Below are positions 25,636 to 39,899 of a DNA stretch of 64,000 nt, in pieces. Made by a program: the position numbers and the translations under genes. The stretch spans positions 186,001 through 250,000 of the forward strand of contig NZ_CAAHFB010000006.1 of assembly GCF_900880625.1 (NCBI RefSeq). The letters are read 5' to 3'. Every line of letters starts with the position of its first letter. Position 1 is the stretch's first letter. Origin of the DNA: Halorhabdus rudnickae (GTDB lineage: Archaea > Halobacteriota > Halobacteria > Halobacteriales > Haloarculaceae). The notes beneath the pieces are model-generated. The model did not search any database, was not told the origin of the DNA, and saw only the letters and a list, made by a program, of their open reading frames with translations.

Positions 25636-26043
25636 TCACCCGACTGTGACGCCGAGCCAAACTTCGAGGACGGCCGAGATTGCCAGGAGGACGAGACTCG
25701 TGACGAACAGCTTCACGTTCCGGTTCACCCTGTACTCGATCGGGAGGTGTGATCCTTCGAGTGGCGGCAGCTCCTGTAATCGTTGCTCGAACCCGAATGC
25801 CGAGTCTCCGGCGACGCTGAAGGAGAATAGCCGCGTGATCGGCCCGCGACCCCGCGGCGACGGCTGGATGGCGAAACTCCCGACGCCGAAGAGGATAAAT
25901 CCGACGACGAACAGCGCGTACTTCAGCGAGAGGAGCCCGTCCCCGACGAGAAACGCCGGGACCGCTAACACAAGGAGGACGCTTCCCGAGACGACGCCGA
26001 CCCAGTAGAAGAACTCGACGTACCGGAGCGCGTTACGTGTCAC
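25636..26043 (-). CDS. Membrane protein at the end of the ABC operon (DUF7555-like)
   Basis: A 135-residue protein with three or four hydrophobic segments: YWVGVVSGSVLLVLAVPAFLV, YALFVVGFILFGVGSFAI and LFVTSLVLLAISAVLEVWLGV. A central polar part carries FSFSVAGDSAFGFEQRLQELPPLEGSH. Its start overlaps the last 11 bases of the preceding ATPase gene, so it is in the same transcript. Role unknown; the family is widespread in haloarchaea. Confidence 0.7.
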   Translation of the reverse strand: MTRNALRYVEFFYWVGVVSGSVLLVLAVPAFLVGDGLLSLKYALFVVGFILFGVGSFAIQPSPRGRGPITRLFSFSVAGDSAFGFEQRLQELPPLEGSHLPIEYRVNRNVKLFVTSLVLLAISAVLEVWLGVTVG

Positions 26044-27370
26044 GAGTACGTCGGGTGATGACGGGCTCGGCGTCCTCGTACTCGTCGGTGTGTCGGTGAC
26101 AGTAGCTCATGTGGCCCTCGTCCCCGACCGAGTGGAGTTCCGGACGCCGCAGGTCACACTCGCCGTTGAACTCGTCGGTGAGGTGACGACGCGCGTCCTC
26201 CGGCCGTCCGTCTTTGACCAGTTCCGCGGCAGTCTCGACGTGTTCACGGACGTCCGCGGGAACGTCCAGATCGCCAAAGAGATCCACGATCGTTTCGTCG
26301 ATGTCGTCGTACGCCGAGAAGCGGCCGACCTGACGCTTGAGGCGGTCGATTGTCCCCAGATCCATCCGCGATCGTTCGCGGACGACCTCCCGGTAGCGTT
26401 CGATCCCATCCCAGACGTCGTCCTCGACGTGTTCGTACGCTTCCGGCCGTATCTTGGCTGGACACCGCGTCGAGAACTGACACCCCGTCGGCGGATCCCG
26501 TGGGCTCGGCGGCGTCCCGGGCAGGGTGATCCGGTGGGACGACGACGACGGATCCGGATGGGGAATGGCCGACAACAGCGATCGCGTATAGGGGTTCTGG
26601 GCGTTCTCGTAGAGTTCCTCGGTTTGGCCGATCTCCATTATTTTTCCGAGGTACATGACTGCGACGCGATCACAGATGTGGCGGACGACAGAGAGATCGT
26701 GGGCGATGAACAGGTACGTGAGATCGAACTCGACCTGTAACTCTTCGAGCAGCGTGATGATCTTCGCCTGGACGCTTACGTCGAGTGCGGAGACTGGTTC
26801 GTCGAGTACGATGAACTCCGGTTCTAGGGCAAGTGCCCGGGCGATCCCGACCCGCTGTCGCTGCCCGCCCGAGAACTGATGGGGGTACCGGTAGTAGTGC
26901 TCCTCGCGCAGCCCCACAGAAGTCAGCAGGTCCAGCGCCCGCTCCTGTCGATCCTGTTTGGTCTTCCAGTCGTGGGCGTCCAGGGGCTCCCGGATGATTT
27001 CGCCGACGGTCATCCGATCGTTGAGACTGGATTCGGGATCCTGAAAGACCATCTGGGCGTTGCGACGCCAGTCTTTCAAATCCTCGCCCGACAGGGTTGT
27101 GATGTCCGTCCCGTCGAAGGAAATCGTCCCGTCGGTGGCTTCCTCCAGTCGAACGAGCGTCCGGCCCAGCGTACTCTTCCCGCAACCGGATTCGCCGACG
27201 AGACCGAGCGTTTCGCCACGCTTGATCGAGAAACTCACCCCGTCGACGGCCTTGACTGATGGCTGGGCGAAGAACCCGCCACCCCCGTAGTATTTCTTCA
27301 GATTGTCGACCTCGATCAACGTCTCACCGGCCTGTGCCATTCGTTCAGTCCGTCCTGACACTTTGCTCAT
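26033..27370 (-). CDS. Dipeptide/oligopeptide-type ABC transporter ATPase (DppF/OppF)
   Basis: A 445-residue ATP-binding protein: Walker [11 protein letters not shown]-loop [11 protein letters not shown], signature SGGQRQR, Walker [13 protein letters not shown] and the OppF C-terminal motif with CxxxxRCP ([11 protein letters not shown]). Beyond residue 320 it has a 120-residue acidic, helical extension ending in a Cys/His region ([17 protein letters not shown]) not found in bacterial OppF. It energises import with the DppD-like subunit. Start overlaps the upstream gene by 4 bp (ATGA). Substrate peptides or sugars cannot be told apart. Confidence 0.92.
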
Positions 27371-28491
27371 GTCTCATCACCCTCCGTGTCGGCTTCTGTC
27401 TCGTCGCCCTCTGTGTCGGCTTCTGGGATGTTCGCACGCGCCCGGTGGTGTGCGACCCGGTCCGACTCCGCCATCTCCTCGGGATACAGCAGACACGCGG
27501 CAGTGTGCTCTATCGTCTCACCGACATCGATGTGGACTGGCGGGACTTTCTCACACGCCCCGAAGGCTTTGGGACATCGCGGGGCGAACCGACAGTGGTC
27601 TGCAGGCGCGTTCGGCGTCGGCACCTCGCCTTCGATCGTGTTGAGCCCCTCCTTGCGGGAGTGCTCTCCCGGGATCGATTCGATGAGGGACCGCGTATAG
27701 GGGTGTTTCGACCGCTCGAAGAGATTCTCGACCGACGCTTTCTCGACGATCTGCCCGGCGTACATCACGTTCACACGATCGGAGATGTCGGCGATGACGC
27801 CCATGTCGTGGGTGATGAACAGGATCGCGAGGTCGCGCTCCTCCTGCAGGTCCTTCAGAAGATCGAGGATCTGTGCCTGGATGGTCACGTCCAGTGCGGT
27901 GGTCGGCTCGTCGGCGATGAGCAGATCGGGTTCGCAGGCGAGCATCATCGCAATGACGGCACGCTGACGCATCCCGCCCGAGAACTCGTGGGGGTACTCG
28001 TCGAGCCGGCGTTTCGCGTCCGGGATGCCGACGGACTCGAGGAGGTCCGTCGCCTTCTCGACAGCTTCCTGACCGGTGATGTCGCGGTTTATCCGCAACG
28101 CCTCTCGGATCTGGTTGCCGATCGTATAAACCGGGTTGAGCGACTGTTGGGGATCCTGGAACACCATTCCGATGCCGCTGCCGCGGACTTCACGGTACTC
28201 AGCGTCGGAGTATTCAGTCAGCTCCTGGCCCTTGAACCGGATGGACGAGTCCGGGAGTACCTGTCCCGGGGACTCGATCAATCCCATGATCGACCGAGCG
28301 GTGACGCTCTTGCCGGAGCCGGACTCGCCGACGATGCCGACCGTCTCGCCGCTATAGACGTCGAAGCTCACGTCGTCGACTGCACGGATCGTTTCCCTGT
28401 CCGTGTGGAAGACGGTCTGGAGGTTCCTGACGGACAGAATTGGCTGCTCGTCGCGTCGCGAGAAGTCGGGCTCGAATTGCTCGCTCGACAT
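27367..28491 (-). CDS. Dipeptide/oligopeptide-type ABC transporter ATPase (DppD/OppD)
   Basis: A 374-residue ATPase: Walker A GESGSGKSV, MVFQDPQQSLNPVYTIG, signature SGGMRQR, Walker B LLIADEPTTALD, and the C-terminal CRFAPRCPKAFGAC motif typical of OppD. The C-terminus ends in two tandem copies of EADTEGDET, a 27-bp DNA duplication (about 27370-27423). Start and stop overlap the neighbouring genes, so translation is coupled through the operon. Confidence 0.92.
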   Translation of the reverse strand: MSSEQFEPDFSRRDEQPILSVRNLQTVFHTDRETIRAVDDVSFDVYSGETVGIVGESGSGKSVTARSIMGLIESPGQVLPDSSIRFKGQELTEYSDAEYREVRGSGIGMVFQDPQQSLNPVYTIGNQIREALRINRDITGQEAVEKATDLLESVGIPDAKRRLDEYPHEFSGGMRQRAVIAMMLACEPDLLIADEPTTALDVTIQAQILDLLKDLQEERDLAILFITHDMGVIADISDRVNVMYAGQIVEKASVENLFERSKHPYTRSLIESIPGEHSRKEGLNTIEGEVPTPNAPADHCRFAPRCPKAFGACEKVPPVHIDVGETIEHTAACLLYPEEMAESDRVAHHRARANIPEADTEGDETEADTEGDET

Positions 28492-30059
28492 CAGGCCCCA
28501 CCTCCCACGGCGGCTTCATCGCCTACGCTCTCGGCGGATTCCTCGCCCTCGGCGGTTTCCGTCTCCGGATCGATCGCGTCACGGATGCCGTCGCCGAACG
28601 CATTGAGACCGGTGACCAGCACGACGATCATCAGCCCCGAGATCAGCGAAATGTGCCAGGACGCCGTCGACACGTAGTCTTGTCCGAGGGAAACGGCACG
28701 TCCCCAGGCCGGCGTCGGCGGGTTGATACCCAGCCCGTTGCCGAGGAACGACAGCGCCGACAGCCCGATGATGATCCCGCCAGTCGACATCGAAGCGTAG
28801 ACAAGCAGGTACCCGACAATGTACGGGAGCATGTGCTTGCGCATGATGGTCCGGGGCCGCTGGCCGAAACTCCGCGCCGCGTCGACCCACTCCTCCTGGG
28901 CGACCTGGAGTGCCGGCCCACGCACCGCTCGCCAGAGGAACGGCCACGTGGTGAACGCGAACACGAGCGCGAGGATGAACCCACCATCGAGGATCCCCCC
29001 GAGCCAGTGGTTCGCGAAGACGGCACTTACCATGATCAACAGGAGCAACCGGGGAACCGAGACCACCCCGTCCGCGGCCGTGAGGATCGTGAGATCGATC
29101 GTGCCGGCGTAATACGCCGAGACCATCGACAGCATGGCCGCGATCAACGTCGCGAGCCCGATCGCGAGCCCGGAGACGATCATCGTGATCCGTGCCCCAC
29201 CCATGAGGAATGTGAACAGATCACGTCCGTTGTTCAGCGTCCCGAACGGGTGGAACCGTCCGTAGTCGTCGTAAGTCATCGGGCCGACGTTCTCAGCACT
29301 GCCCTTGGACTTGGAGTTGAAGTTGGCGTCGCCGACCGGAATCGACTCGACCTCACCCGCTTCCGCGTCGAAGTACTTGACCTCGTAGCTGTAGGAACTT
29401 TGGATGTTTTGTTCGACAGTCGTGGGACCCATCGCCGGTCCGAACACGGCCATCGTCAGGTATAACAGGAGAATGAGGATGCCAAACTGCCCCCATCGAT
29501 GGACCCGAAGCCGTCGGAACATGTCGTCCGTCGGCGTCCAGTCGGCCTGGCGGTAGTGCTCGCGGTAGACTTTCCAGCCCCGGAACAGCCAGTAACTGAA
29601 AAACAGCGTGTATGCGACGATAAGGGTGAACCGGATCCCCCACGCGACGGCTGGCTCTAGCCCCAGGAACGTCCCTTCCCAGGGTCCGTTCGGGCCGAGC
29701 CTGTGTCCCTGGTTGGGGATTACCGCCCGGCTGAAAAGCGTCGGAATGGCCGCTGCAGCGTCACCGATGCCGATGAGAAACTGGGAAACTCCCGTCTGGA
29801 AATTGACGATCGCGTTCGCCGCGCCGTTGGAGACGAATCCGAGGGCGACGTCGAAAACCGCCGTCACGCCGACGAACGTTCGCTCGACTGTCGCGACCGT
29901 CAGCGAGGCGTACGTGCCGAACTCGACGGCGGTCAGCATCGCCAGGACTGACACCCACTTCAGGAACGGTCGCGGGGATTCCGCGATCCGTGTCCGGAGG
30001 GGGACGTTCTCGTGCCCGGTCAACTCTTCGCGCGTCGCGGTTGGATCAGTGTCCGACAT
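28491..30059 (-). CDS. ABC transporter permease (DppC-like), large haloarchaeal form
   Basis: A 522-residue permease. The binding-protein-dependent transport domain is in the C-terminal 300 residues, with TMs and the EAA loop EEWVDAARSFGQRPRTIMRKHMLP. The N-terminal 200 residues contain additional TMs (SVLAMLTAVEFGTYASLTV, FTLIVAYTLFFSYWLF, GQFGILILLLYLTMAVFGPAMG), longer than bacterial DppC. A loop with YSYEVKYFDAEAGEV is probably outside. ATG 30059 is chosen; a GTG at 30068 overlapping the dppB stop is also possible. Confidence 0.87.
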   Translation of the reverse strand: MSDTDPTATREELTGHENVPLRTRIAESPRPFLKWVSVLAMLTAVEFGTYASLTVATVERTFVGVTAVFDVALGFVSNGAANAIVNFQTGVSQFLIGIGDAAAAIPTLFSRAVIPNQGHRLGPNGPWEGTFLGLEPAVAWGIRFTLIVAYTLFFSYWLFRGWKVYREHYRQADWTPTDDMFRRLRVHRWGQFGILILLLYLTMAVFGPAMGPTTVEQNIQSSYSYEVKYFDAEAGEVESIPVGDANFNSKSKGSAENVGPMTYDDYGRFHPFGTLNNGRDLFTFLMGGARITMIVSGLAIGLATLIAAMLSMVSAYYAGTIDLTILTAADGVVSVPRLLLLIMVSAVFANHWLGGILDGGFILALVFAFTTWPFLWRAVRGPALQVAQEEWVDAARSFGQRPRTIMRKHMLPYIVGYLLVYASMSTGGIIIGLSALSFLGNGLGINPPTPAWGRAVSLGQDYVSTASWHISLISGLMIVVLVTGLNAFGDGIRDAIDPETETAEGEESAESVGDEAAVGGGA

Positions 30060-30064
30060 CGATG

Positions 30065-31156
30065 TCACCTCTCAGTGTCCTCCAGCGTGATTCGCGGATC
30101 GATGAACGTATACAGGATGTCCTGGGTGATGTTGACCGTGACCTGGACGACGATGAACAGGAACACAAGCCCCATCACGAGCGGGATGTCCGGACCGAGT
30201 ACGCCACGGAAGAACATGTTCCCCAGTCCGCGGATCGAGAAGACCTTCTCGACGAGGACGGACCCGCCGATGAGCAGATAGAACTCACCCATGATCACGG
30301 GCAACAGTGGGATGAGTGCGTTGCGTCCGACGTGTTTGGTGATGATCCGCCGACCGGACACGCCCTTCGCTTTCGCGGTTTCGACGTACTTCGAGTTGAT
30401 GCTTTCGAGTACCGCGGTCCGACCGATACGGATCTCGTTACCCATCGACGCCGATCCGAGTACCAGGGCCGCGGGCAGGATCCACTTGATAGAAATCGCC
30501 AAATTCTCCCAGTTCGGGACTGGTACCCGGATGGCCTCGAGCAACGGTATCCCGGCGAAGATGTCGATACTGCCGAACATGCTCGATAACGCGCCTGGAG
30601 TCCCGATCACATCCGTCGGGATGAAGAGGCCCTTATAGAAGGAGAGTGCCCCGCCGGCCGAGAGCAGGCCGGAGAGCATCACTGCGAGCCAGAAGTTCGG
30701 CATCGCTCGCCAGATGATGCCGCCCCCCGACGCGATGTAATCACGCCAAGTGTTTGCTCGGAGGCCGGCGTACAGTCCCCCCGGAACCCCGAACGCGAGC
30801 GCGATGACGACCGACCAGAATCCGAGCCATAGCGTCGCAGGCATTCGATTGAGGATAAGATCCGACACCGGGGTCCCGCGCTGGATGATCCAGGACTGCC
30901 CGAAGTCCAACGTCACCAGATCGGTGACGACCTTGAAGTACTGTGACCAAAGGGGGACGGGCGTCCCGTCGGGATAGATGATCCCGAGGGCAATTCTCAG
31001 CTGGCGGACGTCTTCCGGCGTCGCATCTCGCCCGAGAATGGACAAGACGGGATCGATCGGCCCCTTGTACAGGACCAGGAAACTCATCGTGATACCGAAC
31101 AGGAACACTGGTACCGCCAGTAACAGTCGCTTGAAGAGATAGAGGAACCGATTCAT
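30065..31156 (-). CDS. ABC transporter permease (DppB-like)
   Basis: A 363-residue permease starting MNRFLYLFKRLLLAVPVFLFGITMSFLVL with about six TM segments and the EAA loop in ESINSKYVETAKAKGVSGRRIITKHVGRNALIP. A long extracytoplasmic loop between TM1 and TM2 is typical of DppB. The ATG at 31156 is chosen over the longer frame because the extra 33 residues lack hydrophobic or acidic character. It pairs with the DppC-like protein to form the channel. Confidence 0.88.
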   Translation of the reverse strand: MNRFLYLFKRLLLAVPVFLFGITMSFLVLYKGPIDPVLSILGRDATPEDVRQLRIALGIIYPDGTPVPLWSQYFKVVTDLVTLDFGQSWIIQRGTPVSDLILNRMPATLWLGFWSVVIALAFGVPGGLYAGLRANTWRDYIASGGGIIWRAMPNFWLAVMLSGLLSAGGALSFYKGLFIPTDVIGTPGALSSMFGSIDIFAGIPLLEAIRVPVPNWENLAISIKWILPAALVLGSASMGNEIRIGRTAVLESINSKYVETAKAKGVSGRRIITKHVGRNALIPLLPVIMGEFYLLIGGSVLVEKVFSIRGLGNMFFRGVLGPDIPLVMGLVFLFIVVQVTVNITQDILYTFIDPRITLEDTER

Positions 31157-31430
31157 CGATCGCCTCCCTCGACCGGCGTTCGGAACCGGTGTCCTGTCCT
31201 GTCTGGTCCGGGCGCGCTCGTCTCCGGCCCCGCCGTTGTGTCCGGCGTCGGCCACGATCCGGATAGCACCACGTTATACTCTCGTCTTCCGGGAAACAGC
31301 ACCGCCGGTCGCGACGATGACTCCATCCTCGAGGGCATACTGGGTTGTCCGATTTTGGTATCGGCTATATTGATTTAACAATATCGGTTGTCGTTCGGAA
31401 CCGGTACTTCGGCCGAGGGTTCGTCCCGGC

Positions 31431-33314
31431 CTATCCCTGGTAGTTCGAGTCGTATCCCTCCGCGCCGCCCGGGAAGACCTGCTTGGGCGTGAGGTGATAG
31501 GCTGCTTCACCCCGCCCTTTGAAGACGCTCTCGACGAAGTCCTCGCGGGTGAGGACGTAGGCCATCGCCTGACGGACCGGTTTGGGCACTTTCTCCATGT
31601 GGAACGCGACGTAGTACGTGTTGATTGCCGGGGTCGTCGACATGTTCACGGTCTTGCCGCCTTCCAACGGGCCGTAGGTGCCAAGCGTTTGGCCCCGGTC
31701 GTTGGTCGTCTCCTCGGTCACGAGTTCCGGATCGTACTGTGGCGTCGGGATCTCGCTGACGTCGGCGTTCTCGTTCAGGAAGTAATTGTACTTGGCACTG
31801 TCCTCGGTAATGATCGCTTCGTGGGTCTCCCCAAACGAAGGGGCCCCGCCGTGGTAATCCTCGAACGCGGAGGCGCGGAACTGGCCACCGTTGCCTTCTT
31901 GCCATTCCTCGAAGACGAACGGGCCACAGCCAACCGGGCTCGTCGAGAACTCTTCCCAGGCCATCTCGCCGTCGTACCCTTCGATGTCGCCGACGATGCC
32001 TTCGGGAACGACGGAGAACGCGGAGTACGCAAACACCTCCAGCGCGTACCCGAATGGGCTGTTGAGCGAAATCGTGAACGTATACTCGCCCGTCGCTTCG
32101 ACTCCGGTCGAGCCCGAGACGACGTTCCCCTCGTCGTCGGTTTCGTGTTCCATATCGAGCACCGATAGCGGGAAATACGTGTTCGTGGAGTTGTCCGACT
32201 CGACGAGCCGTCGGAACGAGTAGACGACGTCGGACGCGGTGACCTCGCCGTAGTCCCCGTGGAACTGGATGCCTTCCTTGAGCGTGAACTCGTACTCGGT
32301 GAGGTCGTCGCTGACAGTGTAGTCCTCGACGATGAGGGGTTCGGTCTCGACCGTCCCGTTGACGTAGTTCAACGGCGCGTCGAACATATCCATGACCTTG
32401 TTGCCACTCTCTGTGTTCCCCGAGGCGATCGGATCCAGGGAACTGAACGTGCCCGAGATGTCGTTGACGGTGTCATCTCCCTCCAGACCGCTGACGGACA
32501 TGTTCGTCTTTGCTCGCGACGGTCCCATCCCACCCGGCGGATTGTAATCGACGTGATCGTACCAGAACAACTGGTCGACCTCGTGGTAGACTGGGAGTAG
32601 TGCGGCCGAATCCCAGAGGGCCCGTTCCATCTTCTCGGTGGCGTCGTCGCGCGTGGACTGGGCCTCGTCGGTCAGTTCCGGATTGTTCTGAATCCGATCG
32701 AATTGTTCGGTGATATACTGGCGAATCTCTTCGTCTCCCTTGACGTCCTCGGACCAGAACATCCGCGCGCCGTTGGGCGTGTACCCCTCGGCGTCGTAGA
32801 CCGTGTTCTTCGGATCGACGAGTTGGAGAAAATTCTGGGCGGCCGGATAGTCGGCGACCCATCCAAGGGTGAACGCCTCGTGGTTGCCGTTCTCCGTGGT
32901 TTCGAGCAGGCTCCCGAAGTCTGCCTGGTTGATATTCATATCGATATAGGCAGAATCGAGACGTGCCCGGATCGTGTTCGCCATCTCCTGCCAGGCACCG
33001 CTCTTGTACTGCAACCAGTCGAGCTCGAACCGGTTGTCCGGTCCGTATCCCGCCTCTTTCATCACCCGCTGAGCCTCGCCGACCTGCGTCTCGTTGATCC
33101 CGTACGGGTAATTACTCGGAGGCTGGTACTCGCCACCCTCGTCAGACATCCCATCGCCATCGCCCGTGTCGGTCCCGCTTTCCATCTCCCCTGGCTCCTC
33201 GGTGTTGGCTTCGGTATCTCCGCCACCACTACAACCGGCCAATCCAACGCCTACCGTCGCTGCCCCGGTAGCCTTGAGGAATCGCCGTCGATTCATGCTA
33301 TTGTCGTCGGACAT
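31431..33314 (-). CDS. ABC transporter substrate-binding lipoprotein (SBP family 5), apparently circularly permuted
   Basis: A 627-residue protein with a Tat signal (MNRRRFLKATGAATVGVGLAGC) and lipobox Cys28, then an acidic linker. Residues 62-272 carry features normally in the C-terminal half of the family: NYPYGINETQVGEAQRVMKEA, HEAFTLGWVADYPAAQNFL and LLPVYHEVDQLFWY. Residues 280-627 carry the normal N-terminal half: GTFSSLDPIASGNTESGNKV, YEFTLKEGIQFHG, TASDVVYSFRRL and later YVLTREDFVESVFKGRG, ending PGGAEGYDSNYQG at the stop. The order is therefore reversed relative to the family while length, frame and signal are intact. First gene of the transporter operon. ATG 33314 puts the twin Arg at positions 9-10. 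Confidence 0.85.
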   Translation of the reverse strand: MSDDNSMNRRRFLKATGAATVGVGLAGCSGGGDTEANTEEPGEMESGTDTGDGDGMSDEGGEYQPPSNYPYGINETQVGEAQRVMKEAGYGPDNRFELDWLQYKSGAWQEMANTIRARLDSAYIDMNINQADFGSLLETTENGNHEAFTLGWVADYPAAQNFLQLVDPKNTVYDAEGYTPNGARMFWSEDVKGDEEIRQYITEQFDRIQNNPELTDEAQSTRDDATEKMERALWDSAALLPVYHEVDQLFWYDHVDYNPPGGMGPSRAKTNMSVSGLEGDDTVNDISGTFSSLDPIASGNTESGNKVMDMFDAPLNYVNGTVETEPLIVEDYTVSDDLTEYEFTLKEGIQFHGDYGEVTASDVVYSFRRLVESDNSTNTYFPLSVLDMEHETDDEGNVVSGSTGVEATGEYTFTISLNSPFGYALEVFAYSAFSVVPEGIVGDIEGYDGEMAWEEFSTSPVGCGPFVFEEWQEGNGGQFRASAFEDYHGGAPSFGETHEAIITEDSAKYNYFLNENADVSEIPTPQYDPELVTEETTNDRGQTLGTYGPLEGGKTVNMSTTPAINTYYVAFHMEKVPKPVRQAMAYVLTREDFVESVFKGRGEAAYHLTPKQVFPGGAEGYDSNYQG

Positions 33315-34041: not shown

Positions 34042-35043
34042 ATGACTCGACAAATCACAACCGAACGCGCAGTCGAACGGTATCTGAACGAACGGCGAGC
34101 AGACATATCCGAGTCTACCTACTACAACCACTCGTCCCTGCTATCACAATTCATCGAGTGGTGTGAGAGCGAAGGTCTGGACACTGTCAACGAACTCGAT
34201 GGCTTCCACATCTCCGACTTCAAGCTCTACCGACGAGACGAGGACAATATCAACAGCGTCACGCTGTACAACCAGATGACCGTCCTTCGGGTATTCCTTC
34301 GATGGTGTGAATCCCGAGATCTGGTCGAAGGGCTTGCTGAGAACATCTTGATGCCCGTTCCCGAGGATGACTCTCGGAACACGATGATTGATTCGGAAAC
34401 GGCGGCACAGATCCTTCAGTTCCTCCAGAAGTACGAATACGGAACGCTGAAGCACGTCGTTTTCTCCCTCTTGTGGGACACCGGATTCCGCATCGGATCG
34501 CTTCGAGCAATAGACCTCGGCGACTACAACCCAGAGGAACAGTACATTGAGGTGCGCCATCGTCCAGAATCAGAAACACCGCTCAAGAACAAATACGGAG
34601 CAGAGCGTGAGATCAACCTCCACGAGTGGGTGTGCAACGTGCTTGACGACTACATTGGGATGCATAGACATGATGTGACTGACGACCACGGACGAGAACC
34701 GTTGATAACAACGAAGCAGGGCCGTCCGGTTCACTCGAATATCCGCGGCCATATTAACTCAGTAACCCGTCCGTGCGTGTACGTGGATCAGTGCCCTCAC
34801 GATAGAAGTCCAGACAGTTGCGAAGCGGCCCAACGACGTGACACCGCTCAACGATGCCCTGACTCAGTCCCACCTCACGCGATCCGGAGATCTGCGATTA
34901 CGGCGTGGCTCAACGACGGCCACACGAAGGAACTCCTCTCCGACAGGATGAACGTCTCCGTGAAGACACTGGAGAAGCACTACGACGCCCGGACGGAGAG
35001 TGAGAAGCGGGAACTACGGCGTGAGGAGTTCGGTATGGAATAG
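34042..35043 (+). CDS. Tyrosine recombinase / integrase of the element
   Basis: A 333-residue phage-type integrase. N-terminal SAM-like core-binding domain (residues 5-105, ERYLNERRADISESTYYNH), catalytic domain with Arg150 in WDTGFRIGSLRAIDL, H279-x-x-R282 in PPHAIRRSAITAWLND and the nucleophile Tyr314 in LEKHYDART. A Cys-rich insert (CVYVDQCPHDRSPDSCEAAQRR) precedes the HxxR motif, as in other haloarchaeal integrases. It lies 109 bp from attR and presumably cuts within the tRNA-Val 3' end. It is the first gene of the element when read from attR. Confidence 0.93.
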   Translation: MTRQITTERAVERYLNERRADISESTYYNHSSLLSQFIEWCESEGLDTVNELDGFHISDFKLYRRDEDNINSVTLYNQMTVLRVFLRWCESRDLVEGLAENILMPVPEDDSRNTMIDSETAAQILQFLQKYEYGTLKHVVFSLLWDTGFRIGSLRAIDLGDYNPEEQYIEVRHRPESETPLKNKYGAEREINLHEWVCNVLDDYIGMHRHDVTDDHGREPLITTKQGRPVHSNIRGHINSVTRPCVYVDQCPHDRSPDSCEAAQRRDTAQRCPDSVPPHAIRRSAITAWLNDGHTKELLSDRMNVSVKTLEKHYDARTESEKRELRREEFGME

Positions 35044-35093
35044 AAAACCTCTACAGGCATCCTTATCCGTTCTTGATTTGATTTCCCTCACGG

Positions 35094-35354
35094 ATGGTAG
35101 AAGCTCTTACAAAAGAGTGCGAACGTTGCGAGACTGAATTTGATATTGATGAGCAATATCGGGAAGTGATTGTTGTTGATCACCCCCACCCTGAGGATGC
35201 AAAAGTTGGAATGGTCCATGATGACTTGGAATACGTTCTCTGTGCCCCTTGTGCGATGGATCTCAAGGACTGGTTCCAAGCTGACGATCCAGAGGCGATC
35301 AGAGAACGTCACGCGGCATTCCCTGAAGAGGAAGTCAACTTGTTTGATCAATAG
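35094..35354 (+). CDS. Small CxxC protein of the element
   Basis: An 86-residue acidic protein with two Cys pairs, CERCETEF and LCAPCAMDL, that could bind one zinc. The rest is VIVVDHPHPEDAKVG and a Trp-containing helix KDWFQADDPEAIRERH. No family recognised. It lies 50 bp after the integrase gene in the lower-GC region. It could be a DNA-binding accessory or regulator, but nothing proves that. Confidence 0.65.
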   Translation: MVEALTKECERCETEFDIDEQYREVIVVDHPHPEDAKVGMVHDDLEYVLCAPCAMDLKDWFQADDPEAIRERHAAFPEEEVNLFDQ

Positions 35355-35534
35355 CTACCTCAACGCTGTCGGGCGGATTCCGGTATCTATTTCCGTCTGG
35401 ATGTTGTCTATACAGTGAAGGCAGATTCTCGCGGTTAGTTCTCCCGTCCAGTCGCAACTGTCGGATCCTACGAAGTTAATGCGCATTGATGGGCGTCTAC
35501 CTCACCGTCAAGAGACTTCTGCCAACATTCCACT

Positions 35535-37457
35535 ATGACTACAGATTCAATCTCCCATAGCGATGCCTACGACGAATCGACAGCTTCTCCGCACAGAGTC
35601 ACTACCAGCGAAGCCCGTGATCGACTCGAAGACACGCTCCATTCGGCACTTCGTGCAGCGGAGAATACGCTCATAGACGCGCCCACTTCACTCGGCAAGA
35701 GCCACCTTATGGCAACGACTCGTTGGAGAGACTATCCTGAAATCACCGGTGGCAATCCGGTCATCCATGTCCATCAGACCAAAGAAGCACGGAAGGATGC
35801 CGTCCAGAAAAGCCGAGATACATTTGGAGTAGAATATCACGTACTCCGAGGTCGAACTGACGCTTGTCCAGTAGCTGCCGGTGACTATGACGATGAGTTG
35901 ACCGCACCAAATGGTCGAACACCTTCCGAATGGTTCGACTGGATGTGCAACGTGCGGAATATCCCGTTCCAGAAAGCTCATCGGCGACTGAATCAACAGT
36001 ACGATCTACCCTGTGGAGAGCATTGCGACGCTGTCACCCAATGGTGGGATGTTCAGAGTGACAGTGAGGAGCTTGAGTACGACGTACTTCACGTCACAGC
36101 CAATTTCGCGAAGGTTGACGAACTCATTGATGGAGCTAACGTCATTTTTGACGAGCGTCCGGAATACAAACTGACGTTCAATGACCCTGAGCGCATGCAG
36201 TTCACTCGGGCGACAACAAACCTACTCAAACACCGGTCAGATGGCGAGTTTACGGAGGTTGATTTCAAAAAAGCCGCAATTCGTGATCAGACAGAGGAAA
36301 AAGAGAAGATTGAACAACACTTTCAGGACGAAGTCACGCAGGAATGGCTGTTCCAACGAGAAGAAACCCATCGACTCACGCCAGTTATCGGACGTGCGGT
36401 TCTTGACGCGGAAGAAATCCTTGAAGGTCGCTATCGCGGACAAGATAGCGGTATCGAGGTCGTGATAACTGACGGCGGAGAAATCCGACATGTCCAGAAT
36501 ACTCCCGATCTATCCGAAGCCCGCTGTGTGATCGGACTCGATGCGTTCCCCTCAGAACTCCGATGGAGTGTCAATACGGTGGACAACCTTACGAAGAGAG
36601 ACGTGTTGTCGCCATCTGAGCGAACCTGGTGGCGACGAAACGAACGGGGATTGATCATCAAGCAGGTTGGCACGGCAACTCGATCCTATACGTCAAGGTG
36701 GAAAGGTGCCGGCGAAAAGCGAGCGAAAGCGATCATCCAGAAGATTCGGGAGTTGCATGGGGATGACTTCCAATCCTGTGTTACATCTGACCACGTCGAA
36801 GACAATATTCGGCAGATGATGACTGCCGCGGGAATCGAGGATCCAATGACAATGCACTACGGCGAGCAAAAAAGCCGGAATGACTACTCAGACGAATCGA
36901 GTGGGGCTATCCTCGCGTCCATCGATCCCGGTGACGAGAATATCCTCGATTATCTCGCGCTCTGTGACGCTATCGCGAAGCCGAAACGAATGGTAACTGA
37001 AGGAGGAGAGATCAGTCGAGAAGTGGGACGGGAATTCGTCGGGCCTGATGCTGATATTGCGAGAGAGCTTTTGGTCTCCGTACGTGAGAGCAATTTGGCA
37101 CAAGCCGTAGGACGATATGCACGCGATCCTGACGATCCCGATTCTGGAGCAATCGTGTACGTCTGGTCAGGTGCAATTCCATCCATACTGGTTGATGAAC
37201 GGATCGAAACGACGTACCACTCGATGACGAAGAAGCGAAAACAATTCTTGAAGGTTCTAAAACAATTCCCAAAGGGGTGTTCCGCCAAAACAATCGCAGA
37301 TGAAACAGGCAGCTATAAATCAAGTGTAATCGACTGGCTCAAAGAAATGAAGAAGAGAGATAACGTACTAAAATCCGAGGGTTCGGGGTATCAGGGTGCC
37401 GACGAATGGCAGTGGTGCGGTAGTGTAACTGAAAACTATGTTGAATTCGACCAATGA
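35535..37457 (+). CDS. SF2-like helicase with possible Fe-S cysteines and C-terminal HTH
   Basis: A 640-residue protein. Walker A is DAPTSLGKSH (residues 48-57), a DEAD-like box is ANVIFDERPE (about 205), and motif VI is QAVGRYARDPDD (about 525). Between motifs I and II lie four cysteines, C111, C138, C160 and C164, a layout resembling XPD/DinG-type [4Fe-4S] helicases, followed by a stretch like VLHVTANFAKVDELI. Residues 570-610 (GCSAKTIADETGSYKSSVIDWL) form a helix-turn-helix. It is probably the replication or maintenance helicase of the element. The iteron-like repeats just downstream support this. Function is inferred. Confidence 0.72.
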   Translation: MTTDSISHSDAYDESTASPHRVTTSEARDRLEDTLHSALRAAENTLIDAPTSLGKSHLMATTRWRDYPEITGGNPVIHVHQTKEARKDAVQKSRDTFGVEYHVLRGRTDACPVAAGDYDDELTAPNGRTPSEWFDWMCNVRNIPFQKAHRRLNQQYDLPCGEHCDAVTQWWDVQSDSEELEYDVLHVTANFAKVDELIDGANVIFDERPEYKLTFNDPERMQFTRATTNLLKHRSDGEFTEVDFKKAAIRDQTEEKEKIEQHFQDEVTQEWLFQREETHRLTPVIGRAVLDAEEILEGRYRGQDSGIEVVITDGGEIRHVQNTPDLSEARCVIGLDAFPSELRWSVNTVDNLTKRDVLSPSERTWWRRNERGLIIKQVGTATRSYTSRWKGAGEKRAKAIIQKIRELHGDDFQSCVTSDHVEDNIRQMMTAAGIEDPMTMHYGEQKSRNDYSDESSGAILASIDPGDENILDYLALCDAIAKPKRMVTEGGEISREVGREFVGPDADIARELLVSVRESNLAQAVGRYARDPDDPDSGAIVYVWSGAIPSILVDERIETTYHSMTKKRKQFLKVLKQFPKGCSAKTIADETGSYKSSVIDWLKEMKKRDNVLKSEGSGYQGADEWQWCGSVTENYVEFDQ

Positions 37458-37532
37458 GGTCATTGGGTTACTCACATGATAAACTTTTATGTGGACAACC
37501 CTATGACCTACAGAGTATGAGATTGTTCTATT

Positions 37533-37565
37533 TAGGGTTTAAAACCTCAGAGGAGAGGTAAACTT
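37533..37565 (+). repeat. 33-bp direct repeat, copy 1
   Basis: Identical to 37625-37657. Each copy contains the palindrome ggtttaaaacc and is followed three bases later by gcagtat. The repeat pitch is 92 bp. Confidence 0.85.
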
Positions 37566-37624
37566 TCTGCAGTATTTTTTAAAGAGTTTAAATACTACAG
37601 CAATTTTGCGGCAGGTTTTAACTG

Positions 37625-37657
37625 TAGGGTTTAAAACCTCAGAGGAGAGGTAAACTT
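37625..37657 (+). repeat. 33-bp direct repeat, copy 2
   Basis: Second copy of the repeat at 37533-37565. Two copies with a palindromic core next to a helicase gene are suggestive of Rep-binding iterons or a regulator site. Confidence 0.85.
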
Positions 37658-38026
37658 CCCGCAGTATCTTAACTTAAGTAAGGAATAGAATAGGACGAAA
37701 ATCCAACCATCAAACGCACATATTGAGGGAACACGAGAGTCTTCAAAACCCTCTGTGCGCTGGAGTCTCCTGAGCCAATTATGGATCGTAGCTCTGACCG
37801 AATCCCCCATACACCCGCATTTAGGACACTCAAAACCCGTGAATTTCGACAGTAAAGGCAAGAAGTGGAAAACACCTGAGATTTACCGACTCGGAAATAC
37901 CTGACTCTCAGTCGGAAATTGTTCTGAGAGAGTTACCTACATTCGTAGATCGCGCGCCGACTAATGTTCCAACCGGCGGTTTCCCTTTATTGAGGACGGC
38001 GAATCTTATCCCGACTCGGAGGGTTG

Positions 38027-38248
38027 TTATGTCGAATCGTTCTCCTCTGTGCTGTTACACACGGTGTCTTGAAGCTCTGCGTAGAGATCGGGATGGTTGG
38101 CCCGGAGTATCTCAACGTCGGTCGTCAGTTCGTCCTTGATCTTACGACGGACCCGTGAGATAGCTTGATAGCGCAGATCTTCATCGACTCTTTCCTCTCC
38201 CTCGATGAGTTCTCGTTCTCGATCAGTCAACAGTGCGCGGCGTGCCAT
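38027..38248 (-). CDS. Small haloarchaeal element protein (MARRALLT family)
   Basis: A 73-residue charged helical protein starting MARRALLTDRERELIEGEERVDED, then ISRVRRKIKDELTTDVEILRANHPDLYAEL. Proteins with this start are frequent in haloarchaeal proviruses and plasmids but have no known function; they look like small DNA-binding or structural regulators. ATG 38248 is chosen over one four codons upstream because it begins the family motif. It is divergent from the SWIM gene, with a near-palindrome between them. Confidence 0.75.
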   Translation of the reverse strand: MARRALLTDRERELIEGEERVDEDLRYQAISRVRRKIKDELTTDVEILRANHPDLYAELQDTVCNSTEENDST

Positions 38249-38268
38249 GTGATTGCCCACGTACGCGG

Positions 38269-38282
38269 GTGACTTAATTCAC
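38269..38282. promoter_or_regulatory. Near-palindrome in shared divergent promoter
   Basis: gtgacttaattcac is palindromic at 12 of 14 positions and sits between the divergent genes at 38248 and 38417. Its AT core may also be the TATA element for one of them. Either gene product could bind here. Confidence 0.4.
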
Positions 38283-38332
38283 CGCATTTGGCAACGTTCC
38301 CGCATATGGGAAGTACTAAGTGGGTAGGGTCC

Positions 38333-38402
38333 GTACTGTTGAGTACGAAGCGCGGTGTCGCCATTCAGGAAATGGCCGGTGCGCCAACACCGACCGCGCT
38401 TC
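38333..38402 (+). ncRNA. Compact structured leader: hairpin plus three-way junction
   Basis: Perfectly paired elements abut each other. Hairpin gtact/agtac (38333-38346) is followed by a closing 10-bp stem gaagcgcggt/accgcgcttc (38347-38356 with 38393-38402). Inside it are hairpin gccatt/aatggc (38360-38376) and hairpin cggtg/caccg (38377-38392). Only a GTC linker and the loops are unpaired. It ends 14 bases before the SWIM start, so it would lie in that mRNA leader, but it could act as DNA or as RNA from either strand. Confidence 0.55.
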
Positions 38403-38416
38403 TGGGCTACAGAAGC

Positions 38417-38911
38417 ATGACCGAATACACTCTGACGGGTGAAAACCCCACCGACCTACCGAAGCGTGCCGTTCGCGCATTAACCGAGAAAATGACCGTC
38501 CTGCCCAACACGGGGTGGGTCAAAGACGCGGATGGCCGGTACCTCGTTATCTCGGAAAGCGGCTCTGAGTACCTTGTGGACATCCGAGAAAGCCGCTGTG
38601 ACTGTCCCGACGCTCACCACAACCTCGATGCAGAGGAACAATGCAAGCACGAACGCCGAGTCAACTACGCGACCGGCGAAACCTCCATCCCAGAATGGGC
38701 TGATCCCAGTGCGATAGACGATCAGCTCGGGACCCACACCGATTCGGACCCGGTCCGCGCGGCAACAGATGGAGGTATCACCGGAGAATCTACCGACGAC
38801 TCTCCCCCGCTCAATGCACCGGAACACTCCGACTGTGATTGCGACGATCTCCACGGAGACTTTCCTTGCGCTGACTGCTACATCGAGGGACGAAAAGAGA
38901 TGCCCGAATGA
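38417..38911 (+). CDS. SWIM zinc-finger protein
   Basis: A 164-residue protein. Residues 52-80 are a SWIM finger: YLVDIRESRCDCPDA, then EEQCKHERRV, giving C61-x-C63-x12-C76-x-H78. The C-terminus has a second cysteine cluster (SDCDCDDLHGDFPCADCYIEG). SWIM fingers bind DNA or proteins and are common in haloarchaeal mobile elements. ATG 38417 is used because the longer frame runs through the structured leader and lacks acidic bias. Confidence 0.8.
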   Translation: MTEYTLTGENPTDLPKRAVRALTEKMTVLPNTGWVKDADGRYLVISESGSEYLVDIRESRCDCPDAHHNLDAEEQCKHERRVNYATGETSIPEWADPSAIDDQLGTHTDSDPVRAATDGGITGESTDDSPPLNAPEHSDCDCDDLHGDFPCADCYIEGRKEMPE

Positions 38912-38942
38912 ATATACTATTTGAAATATGAATATGTGATCA

Positions 38943-39899
38943 TCAAGATATTCTTTGCTGTGGCTTCAAATCCTCAAGCCGGTCTTTGGCCATCTCTAAG
39001 TACTCCTCATCAACTTCCAAACTTATTGAATCTCGTCCATTTCTTGATGCCGCAATTGTGGTTGTCCCAATACCAGCAAAGGGGTCCATCACAGTATCGC
39101 CAACAAAGGAATACATTCTAATTAGACGCTCTGCTAGTTCTTCCGGATATGGGGCAGGATGATTTCCTGATTTCTCCCCTTGAATATCCGTCCATATCTG
39201 TCGAAAGAACTGATTGTGGTCATCGACCTGAATTGTGGAGAGAACTCGTTCGGCGGTAGATGGTGAACGGTATTTTCCCGGCTTACGGAATAACAGAATA
39301 TACTCTATATCATTTTTTATTACTGCTCCTGGTTCGTAGGGCTTTCCTAGGAATCTGGCATTCCCTCCTGCTTCTAATGCCGCATTCCCGATTTTTGCCC
39401 AAATTATTGGCGCTAGGTTGTCAAATCCGACACTTTTGCATTGTTCCTGAATTGAGGAATGCAACGGTAGTGCTCTGTGACGGCCTGCTTCCCGTCGTGA
39501 CTGGAGTACATCTCCCACGACTACGCACATTCTACCTCCAGGAATTAACTTATCATAACACTCTTCCCAGACATCCTCAAGCTCATCGATGAATGTTTCA
39601 TATTCATCGATCAACCCCAACTGCCCATTTTCATCATTATAGTTTTTAATATTGAAATAAGGCGGGCTTGTGACAACTAGATCTACAGAACCATCTTCGA
39701 TATCATTTAACTCTCTCGAATCTGAATTAATGAATGAATGATTTGTCGGCAGTCTATAGATGGTATTTTCTATTTCTATCATTTTCTCCCAATCTCTAGC
39801 CAATTCAGGAATCTCTGTCCTCAATTCTTGGTTATTTTTGTCCAAAAGATGACTACAAGAGTCTGGGATAAAATCCACTAACTCATCTTTTTCGACCAT
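38943..39899 (-). CDS. Beta-class DNA methyltransferase, probably m4C
   Basis: A 318-residue methyltransferase with catalytic motif IV TSPPY (residues 77-81) before the SAM-binding motif I DPFAGIGTT (about residue 270), the beta-class order. TSPPY favours N4-cytosine methylation but N6-adenine cannot be excluded. Target-recognition sequence lies between (about residues 100-250). No restriction endonuclease gene is next to it, so it appears solitary. Its GC content is low, as in the following genes. It is divergent from the small gene at 39978. Confidence 0.88.
   Translation of the reverse strand: MVEKDELVDFIPDSCSHLLDKNNQELRTEIPELARDWEKMIEIENTIYRLPTNHSFINSDSRELNDIEDGSVDLVVTSPPYFNIKNYNDENGQLGLIDEYETFIDELEDVWEECYDKLIPGGRMCVVVGDVLQSRREAGRHRALPLHSSIQEQCKSVGFDNLAPIIWAKIGNAALEAGGNARFLGKPYEPGAVIKNDIEYILLFRKPGKYRSPSTAERVLSTIQVDDHNQFFRQIWTDIQGEKSGNHPAPYPEELAERLIRMYSFVGDTVMDPFAGIGTTTIAASRNGRDSISLEVDEEYLEMAKDRLEDLKPQQRIS

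Follow-up and report, generated by a model that had tools for sequence, protein, structure and literature searches.

A circularly permuted Dpp/Opp-type binding protein of Halorhabdus rudnickae and the repeated re-cutting of its haloarchaeal family

Two main models account for circular permutation: duplication and fission-fusion (PMC3320104). Duplication-type permutations have been described in DNA methyltransferases and in saposin/swaposin (reviewed in PMC3320104). For ABC binding proteins, a natural circular permutant is TpMglB-2 (Tp0684) of Treponema pallidum and relatives, which defines 'cluster Bc' and whose topology, its authors suggested, could reflect adaptation to tethering (PMC4990184). 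As a rule, a natural circular permutation is viewed as one ancient event whose course is difficult to follow. In the open-access literature we found no report of permuted peptide-type cluster C binding proteins or of recurrence within one family, and open-access papers offered nothing relevant on permuted peptide-binding proteins or on haloarchaea.

The H. rudnickae protein described here resembles TpMglB-2 in being a natural permutation of a tethered, bilobed ABC binding protein that is common to many species. In contrast, TpMglB-2 is a sugar-binding protein of cluster B with one topology and a moved part of poor similarity, whereas the haloarchaeal family is of the peptide-type cluster C, has been cut at three sites in at least five separate origins, and has moved blocks that are 40–70% identical to those of normal relatives. 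The protein is not a member of cluster B: in a Pfam scan it matched SBP_bac_5 and no sugar-binding family. With OppA and DppA of family 5 (cluster C, SBP_bac_5) it shares the profile, operon, signal, length and amine-docking Asp, but in the solved OppA, DppA and MppA chains the early block takes up the low residue numbers and the late block the high ones, which is the opposite of the Halorhabdus gene. The likeness to the DNA methyltransferases and saposin/swaposin lies in cyclic reordering within a family and in a duplication-and-trimming model (PMC3320104). Here, however, the signal and linker remain in front, and one permutation affects a gene that was already permuted. A sequence-only reading of the gene had proposed that permutation would be new for this fold. 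This stands for cluster C, as far as the open-access literature goes, but not for binding proteins of the other cluster, where TpMglB-2 is the precedent (PMC4990184).

To describe the order of the chain, the protein was cut into four blocks (A1, A2, B1 and B2) and the blocks were mapped in homologs. The ordinary order, N, is A1-A2-B1-B2; the H. rudnickae gene has the order B1-B2-A1-A2, called P1. Two further orders were found: P2 (B2-A1-A2-B1) and P3 (A2-B1-B2-A1). The gene lies on the reverse strand of the window, which is the whole stretch of 64,000 nucleotides that was analysed, and an open-frame check upheld the frame, start and length given in the sequence-only reading. An extension of 17 residues from a GTG start is possible but not needed. 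Its features, in window positions, are as follows:

31431..33314, (-) strand: permuted family-5 solute-binding lipoprotein gene, 627 aa, in the order signal-linker-B1-B2-A (open frame and Pfam)
33231..33314, (-) strand: Tat-type signal and lipobox, residues 1–28 (RRRFLKATG ... LAGC) (sequence)
33123..33230, (-) strand: acidic low-complexity linker, residues 29–64, after which comes the new N-terminus of the folded domain (sequence and model)
32745..33122, (-) strand: block B1, residues 65–190, the domain III part with GWVADYP (homolog alignment)
32850–32852, (-) strand: D155, within B1, aligned to OppA D419 (alignment)
32499..32744, (-) strand: block B2, residues 191–272, with the native C-terminal helix, strand and tail, LPVYH ... 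MGPSRAK (alignment)
32457..32498, (-) strand: fused junction, residues 273–286, old C-terminal tail and old N-terminus (alignment and junction profile A4)
32136..32456, (-) strand: block A1, residues 287–393, with SSLDP and TASDVVYSFRRL (alignment)
31434..32135, (-) strand: block A2, residues 394–627 (alignment)

As had been read from the letters, the signal, lipobox and acidic linker are intact in front, the late block (residues 65–272) is next and the early block (residues 287–627) is last; about residues 273–286 form the fused C-to-N junction. The new C-terminus, PGGAEGYDSNYQG, corresponds to the loop just ahead of NYPYG in proteins of normal order. The features for export and tethering, the RR-motif and the lipobox LAGC (with Cys 28), are present in the sequence, and R9, R10, G27 and C28 are invariant in 20 P1 proteins. 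The TAT_signal Pfam score of 21.1 bits is just below the cut-off of 22.7. Against PF00496 (SBP_bac_5, cut-off 32.4) the whole protein scores 183 bits in two stretches. When these were scanned apart, residues 60–280 matched profile positions 257–361 and residues 279–627 matched positions 2–262. These are the two partial matches in reversed model order that a permutation predicts, and the collinear full-length match that would have refuted it was not obtained. Likewise, normal-order relatives align as two blocks with their order swapped. Each block is thus retained once, the cyclic order is altered and the native termini are joined, which meets the criterion for a circular permutant.

In 26 of 391 Halobacteria genomes, one stop-free match covers the full length of the protein in the permuted order, at identities from 100% down to 58%, and a further P1 homolog, 47–49% identical, is present in G015 (L009/L069). 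Carriers include Halorhabdus amylolytica, Halorhabdus salina, Halorubrum distributum, Haloquadratum walsbyi, Halobacterium salinarum DSM 3754, Halosimplex species, Halapricum hydrolyticum, Halolamina salifodinae, Halonotius pteroides and Halosegnis rubeus. Within the genus, dN/dS over the gene is 0.12–0.26 and is low in both blocks; judged by these ratios, the gene is under purifying selection.

Once identical sequences had been removed, the first set comprised 84 N, 36 P1, 22 P2 and 3 P3 proteins, and 20 additional loci beyond it were P2. Order was also determined using a query in which the mature domain occurs twice in tandem, where the start of the single continuous match reveals the order. 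A junction profile (A4), built on the fused old C-to-N termini, separates permuted proteins from normal ones: 73 proteins in 72 of the 391 genomes span the junction at 193 bits or more. The next best match reaches 160 bits, on the early side of the junction alone, leaving a clear gap in score. By block mapping or hit range, the 73 proteins are 26 P1, 45 P2 and 2 P3, with five matches (in G056, G114, G154, G170 and G210) assigned to P2 by hit range only. The loci L211–L230, suspected from junction matches of having new cut sites, all turned out to be P2, and a match with stops in G239 is the normal-order gene L202, where the match extends a few codons upstream. In P2, the last ~80 C-terminal residues alone have moved to the front. 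Such proteins (e.g. L073 and L074) give one collinear, full-length SBP_bac_5 match, because the model omits the C-terminal part that moved, and this is a warning that domain annotation misses permutations of this kind. Unnoticed P2 cases are probably many in databases. As a control, the tandem-query method was applied to a sister family-5 group of the same class, and 48 of 48 proteins had the normal order; therefore, permuted orders are not a product of the method, nor are they a general trait of family 5 in these organisms. Several orders can occur within a single genus: Halobacterium (group g39) contains P1 (G046, G051 and G250), P3 (G093) and N (G065, G117 and G332). The N relatives of permuted proteins are up to about 60% identical to them.

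For tree building, all sequences were rotated to the ordinary order. The trees require six changes of order. One is from N to P1, with a support of 100 for the P1 clade. Two are from N to P2: a large clade whose sister group consists of N proteins from Natrialba and its allies and, separately, L073, which adjoins the N protein L104 (59% identity). P2 as a single clade was rejected (log-likelihood difference 254, p 1.9e-86), and with it a single origin of all permuted orders. In the best tree P3 appears three times: L135, of Haloglomus irregulare, is nested in the P1 clade, where no other P3 was found, and L193 and L201 lie among N proteins. Since a single origin for the latter two was not rejected (p 0.10) and they may be one event, at least five origins are claimed, with six as the best count. 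On the strength of these trees, then, the family has been permuted independently at least five times, with the cuts in three loops, and the H. rudnickae gene is one of several such permutations, which goes beyond what its sequence alone could reveal. With its four cyclic orders, its five or more origins, close N relatives, a nested permutation with a linker scar and archaea that are partly tractable, the family makes two questions testable: the stepwise origin of permutations and the effect of moving the tether on a binding protein.

The structure of the H. rudnickae protein was predicted with AlphaFold from 142 rows, consisting of P1 proteins and of homologs in the normal order, the latter divided into their A and B parts. 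The resulting model is confident, with a mean pLDDT of 89.5 and a pTM of 0.86; an earlier model from 20 sequences was poor (pLDDT 60.7). Only residues 1–58, nearly all with a pLDDT <50, are disordered, and the fold begins at ~60–65. A sequential Foldseek search of the PDB matched OppA, DppA, MppA and GbpA-type proteins over about 240–290 columns, with query-normalised TM values of 0.30–0.35 among the matches listed (50). This partial overlap is expected, as a sequential aligner meets chains that have been reordered. The three-domain architecture of cluster C and Venus-flytrap binding should be kept, although this is a prediction for which there are no structural or binding data.

The permuted gene heads an intact operon of the Dpp/Opp type, which encodes a pair of permeases and a pair of oligo_HPY ATPases:

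30065..31255, (-) strand: permease of the DppB/OppB type (PF00528, 2e-29), 61–88% identical to those beside other P1 genes
28491..30068, (-) strand: permease of the DppC/OppC type (PF00528, OppC_N)
27367..28491, (-) strand: ATPase of the DppD/OppD type (PF00005, oligo_HPY)
26033..27370, (-) strand: ATPase of the DppF/OppF type (PF00005, oligo_HPY)

Such an operon is present at 19 of 20 P1, 19 of 19 P2 and 2 of 2 P3 loci tested, and the same layout is found at 22 of 37 N loci. About ten N relatives (L094, L095, L096, L112, L194, L197, L198, L200, L207 and L209) lack importer genes downstream, within the stretch of DNA examined, and these may be orphan binding proteins or have their operon elsewhere. 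D155, which is invariant in P1, aligns with OppA D419, the residue that we take to dock the peptide amine. In BbOppA4, the peptide N-terminus (amine) is docked by Asp431 (PMC5736914). We infer a working importer of the peptide type with unchanged transport function; both substrate and uptake are inferred from similarity alone.

The oddity of the gene is all that would favour a mis-joined contig, which could make an ordinary gene appear permuted and which had been named as grounds for refutation. As the swapped order occurs at full length and without stops in 26 of 391 genomes, neither chance nor misassembly explains it; moreover, independent assemblies from many species agree in order at 47–87% identity, with the same breakpoints and operon. 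Misassembly is accordingly rejected and has next to no standing. The permutation could instead be a chimera of two paralogs, with gene fission followed by fusion in the other order, rather than the permutation of one gene. Several N paralogs are present per genome, with two close together in G274 (L199), and no duplicated intermediate was seen among the matches listed. Against this, the block A and block B trees place P1, P2 and P3 alike, with six changes each, L073 has L104 as its nearest N protein in both blocks, and little sequence has been added where the native tails meet. A paralog chimera is disfavoured by the agreement of the trees and we consider it improbable. That agreement on one parent, together with the reversed Pfam blocks, the order kept across genera, the dN/dS and the confident single-fold model, bears out the earlier description of a clean permutation and not a decayed gene. 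In the duplication-and-trimming route that we infer instead, the mature domain would be duplicated in tandem and in frame behind one signal and linker; next, the front part of the first copy and the back part of the second would be lost, so that in the folded product the lipid anchor would enter via domain III and not the hinge domain I. For L135, a P1 gene including its linker would have been duplicated and then trimmed, leaving a linker remnant as a scar. This route is favoured because the signal and linker never move and stay in front in permuted proteins, because the blocks share one parent and because L135 keeps a Gly/Asp linker remnant, GYDGGDTGGSGFDG, between A2 and B1, at the expected site of a second linker. 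Fission-fusion or cut-and-paste is not excluded, since a duplicated A-B-A-B intermediate was not found among the matches listed for the tandem-query search of Halobacteria genomes. A 975-aa frame in G183 was considered as such an intermediate and rejected, as it is a kinase-like fusion. In G274, two N copies lie ~2 kb apart in the same orientation (L199:7183-13118), an arrangement from which permutations could start. Overall, we hold with considerable confidence that the protein is a tethered, Dpp/Opp-type binding protein with an inherited permutation, likely reached by duplication and trimming, in a family re-cut on five or more occasions, in three loops.

What the re-cutting does to the tether is less certain. 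In all permuted proteins examined, the native C-terminal tail (e.g. NTVSL in normal proteins) runs almost straight into the native N-terminal strand, and the three new termini sit in loops whose length differs from one normal protein to another. Weak alignments place the P1 cut at OppA ~328–340 and the P2 cut at OppA ~430–441, both in domain III, and the P3 cut, in the loop after block A1, at DppA ~115–121, in domain II. The domain limits were borrowed from BbOppA4 (I: 30–62, 187–285 and 504–530; II: 63–186; III: 286–503; PMC5736914). Because of where the cuts map, the lipid anchor is inferred to shift from the hinge domain I to domain III (P1 and P2) or domain II (P3). It is possible, although we think it rather unlikely, that haloarchaea repeatedly and adaptively re-cut a tethered peptide-binding family so that the anchor enters via III or II and not I. 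If true, tether position would be a selected property of ABC importers, which would support the untested idea raised for TpMglB-2. The permutation could also be real but neutral: the fold would tolerate cuts in variable loops and duplicates would arise often, and recurrence would then require no advantage. The placement of all three cut sites in such loops fits this, as do the unchanged signal, operon and length. Yet mutation supply alone does not explain the bias towards this family, since all 48 proteins of the sister family-5 group have the normal order, unless the sister family differs in its tolerance of cuts. We regard the neutral account as evenly poised between true and false; whether selection or neutrality underlies the tether shift is undecided, and any advantage is only inferred. 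A further proposal, that permuted proteins serve as sensors or adhesins and no longer feed an importer, could draw on the fusion of one P2 protein (L226) to a kinase-like domain, but with nearly all permuted genes tested heading a complete importer operon, and with the amine-docking Asp retained, it has very little to recommend it.

The fusion itself (L226:2864-5788 in G183) is a 965–975 aa frame made up of a kinase-like N-terminal domain, a hydrophobic segment and a P2 binding domain. The kinase-like domain scores 24.6 bits against PF00069, below the cut-off of 31.7, and the protein is possibly a sensor kinase of the membrane that incorporates a permuted binding protein. In the window, the region directly upstream of the operon (34042–39899) encodes a phage-type integrase (PF00589), an N4/N6 DNA methylase (PF01555), and frames of 640 and 207 aa, both without a Pfam match. 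This is likely an integrated element that adjoins the importer operon.
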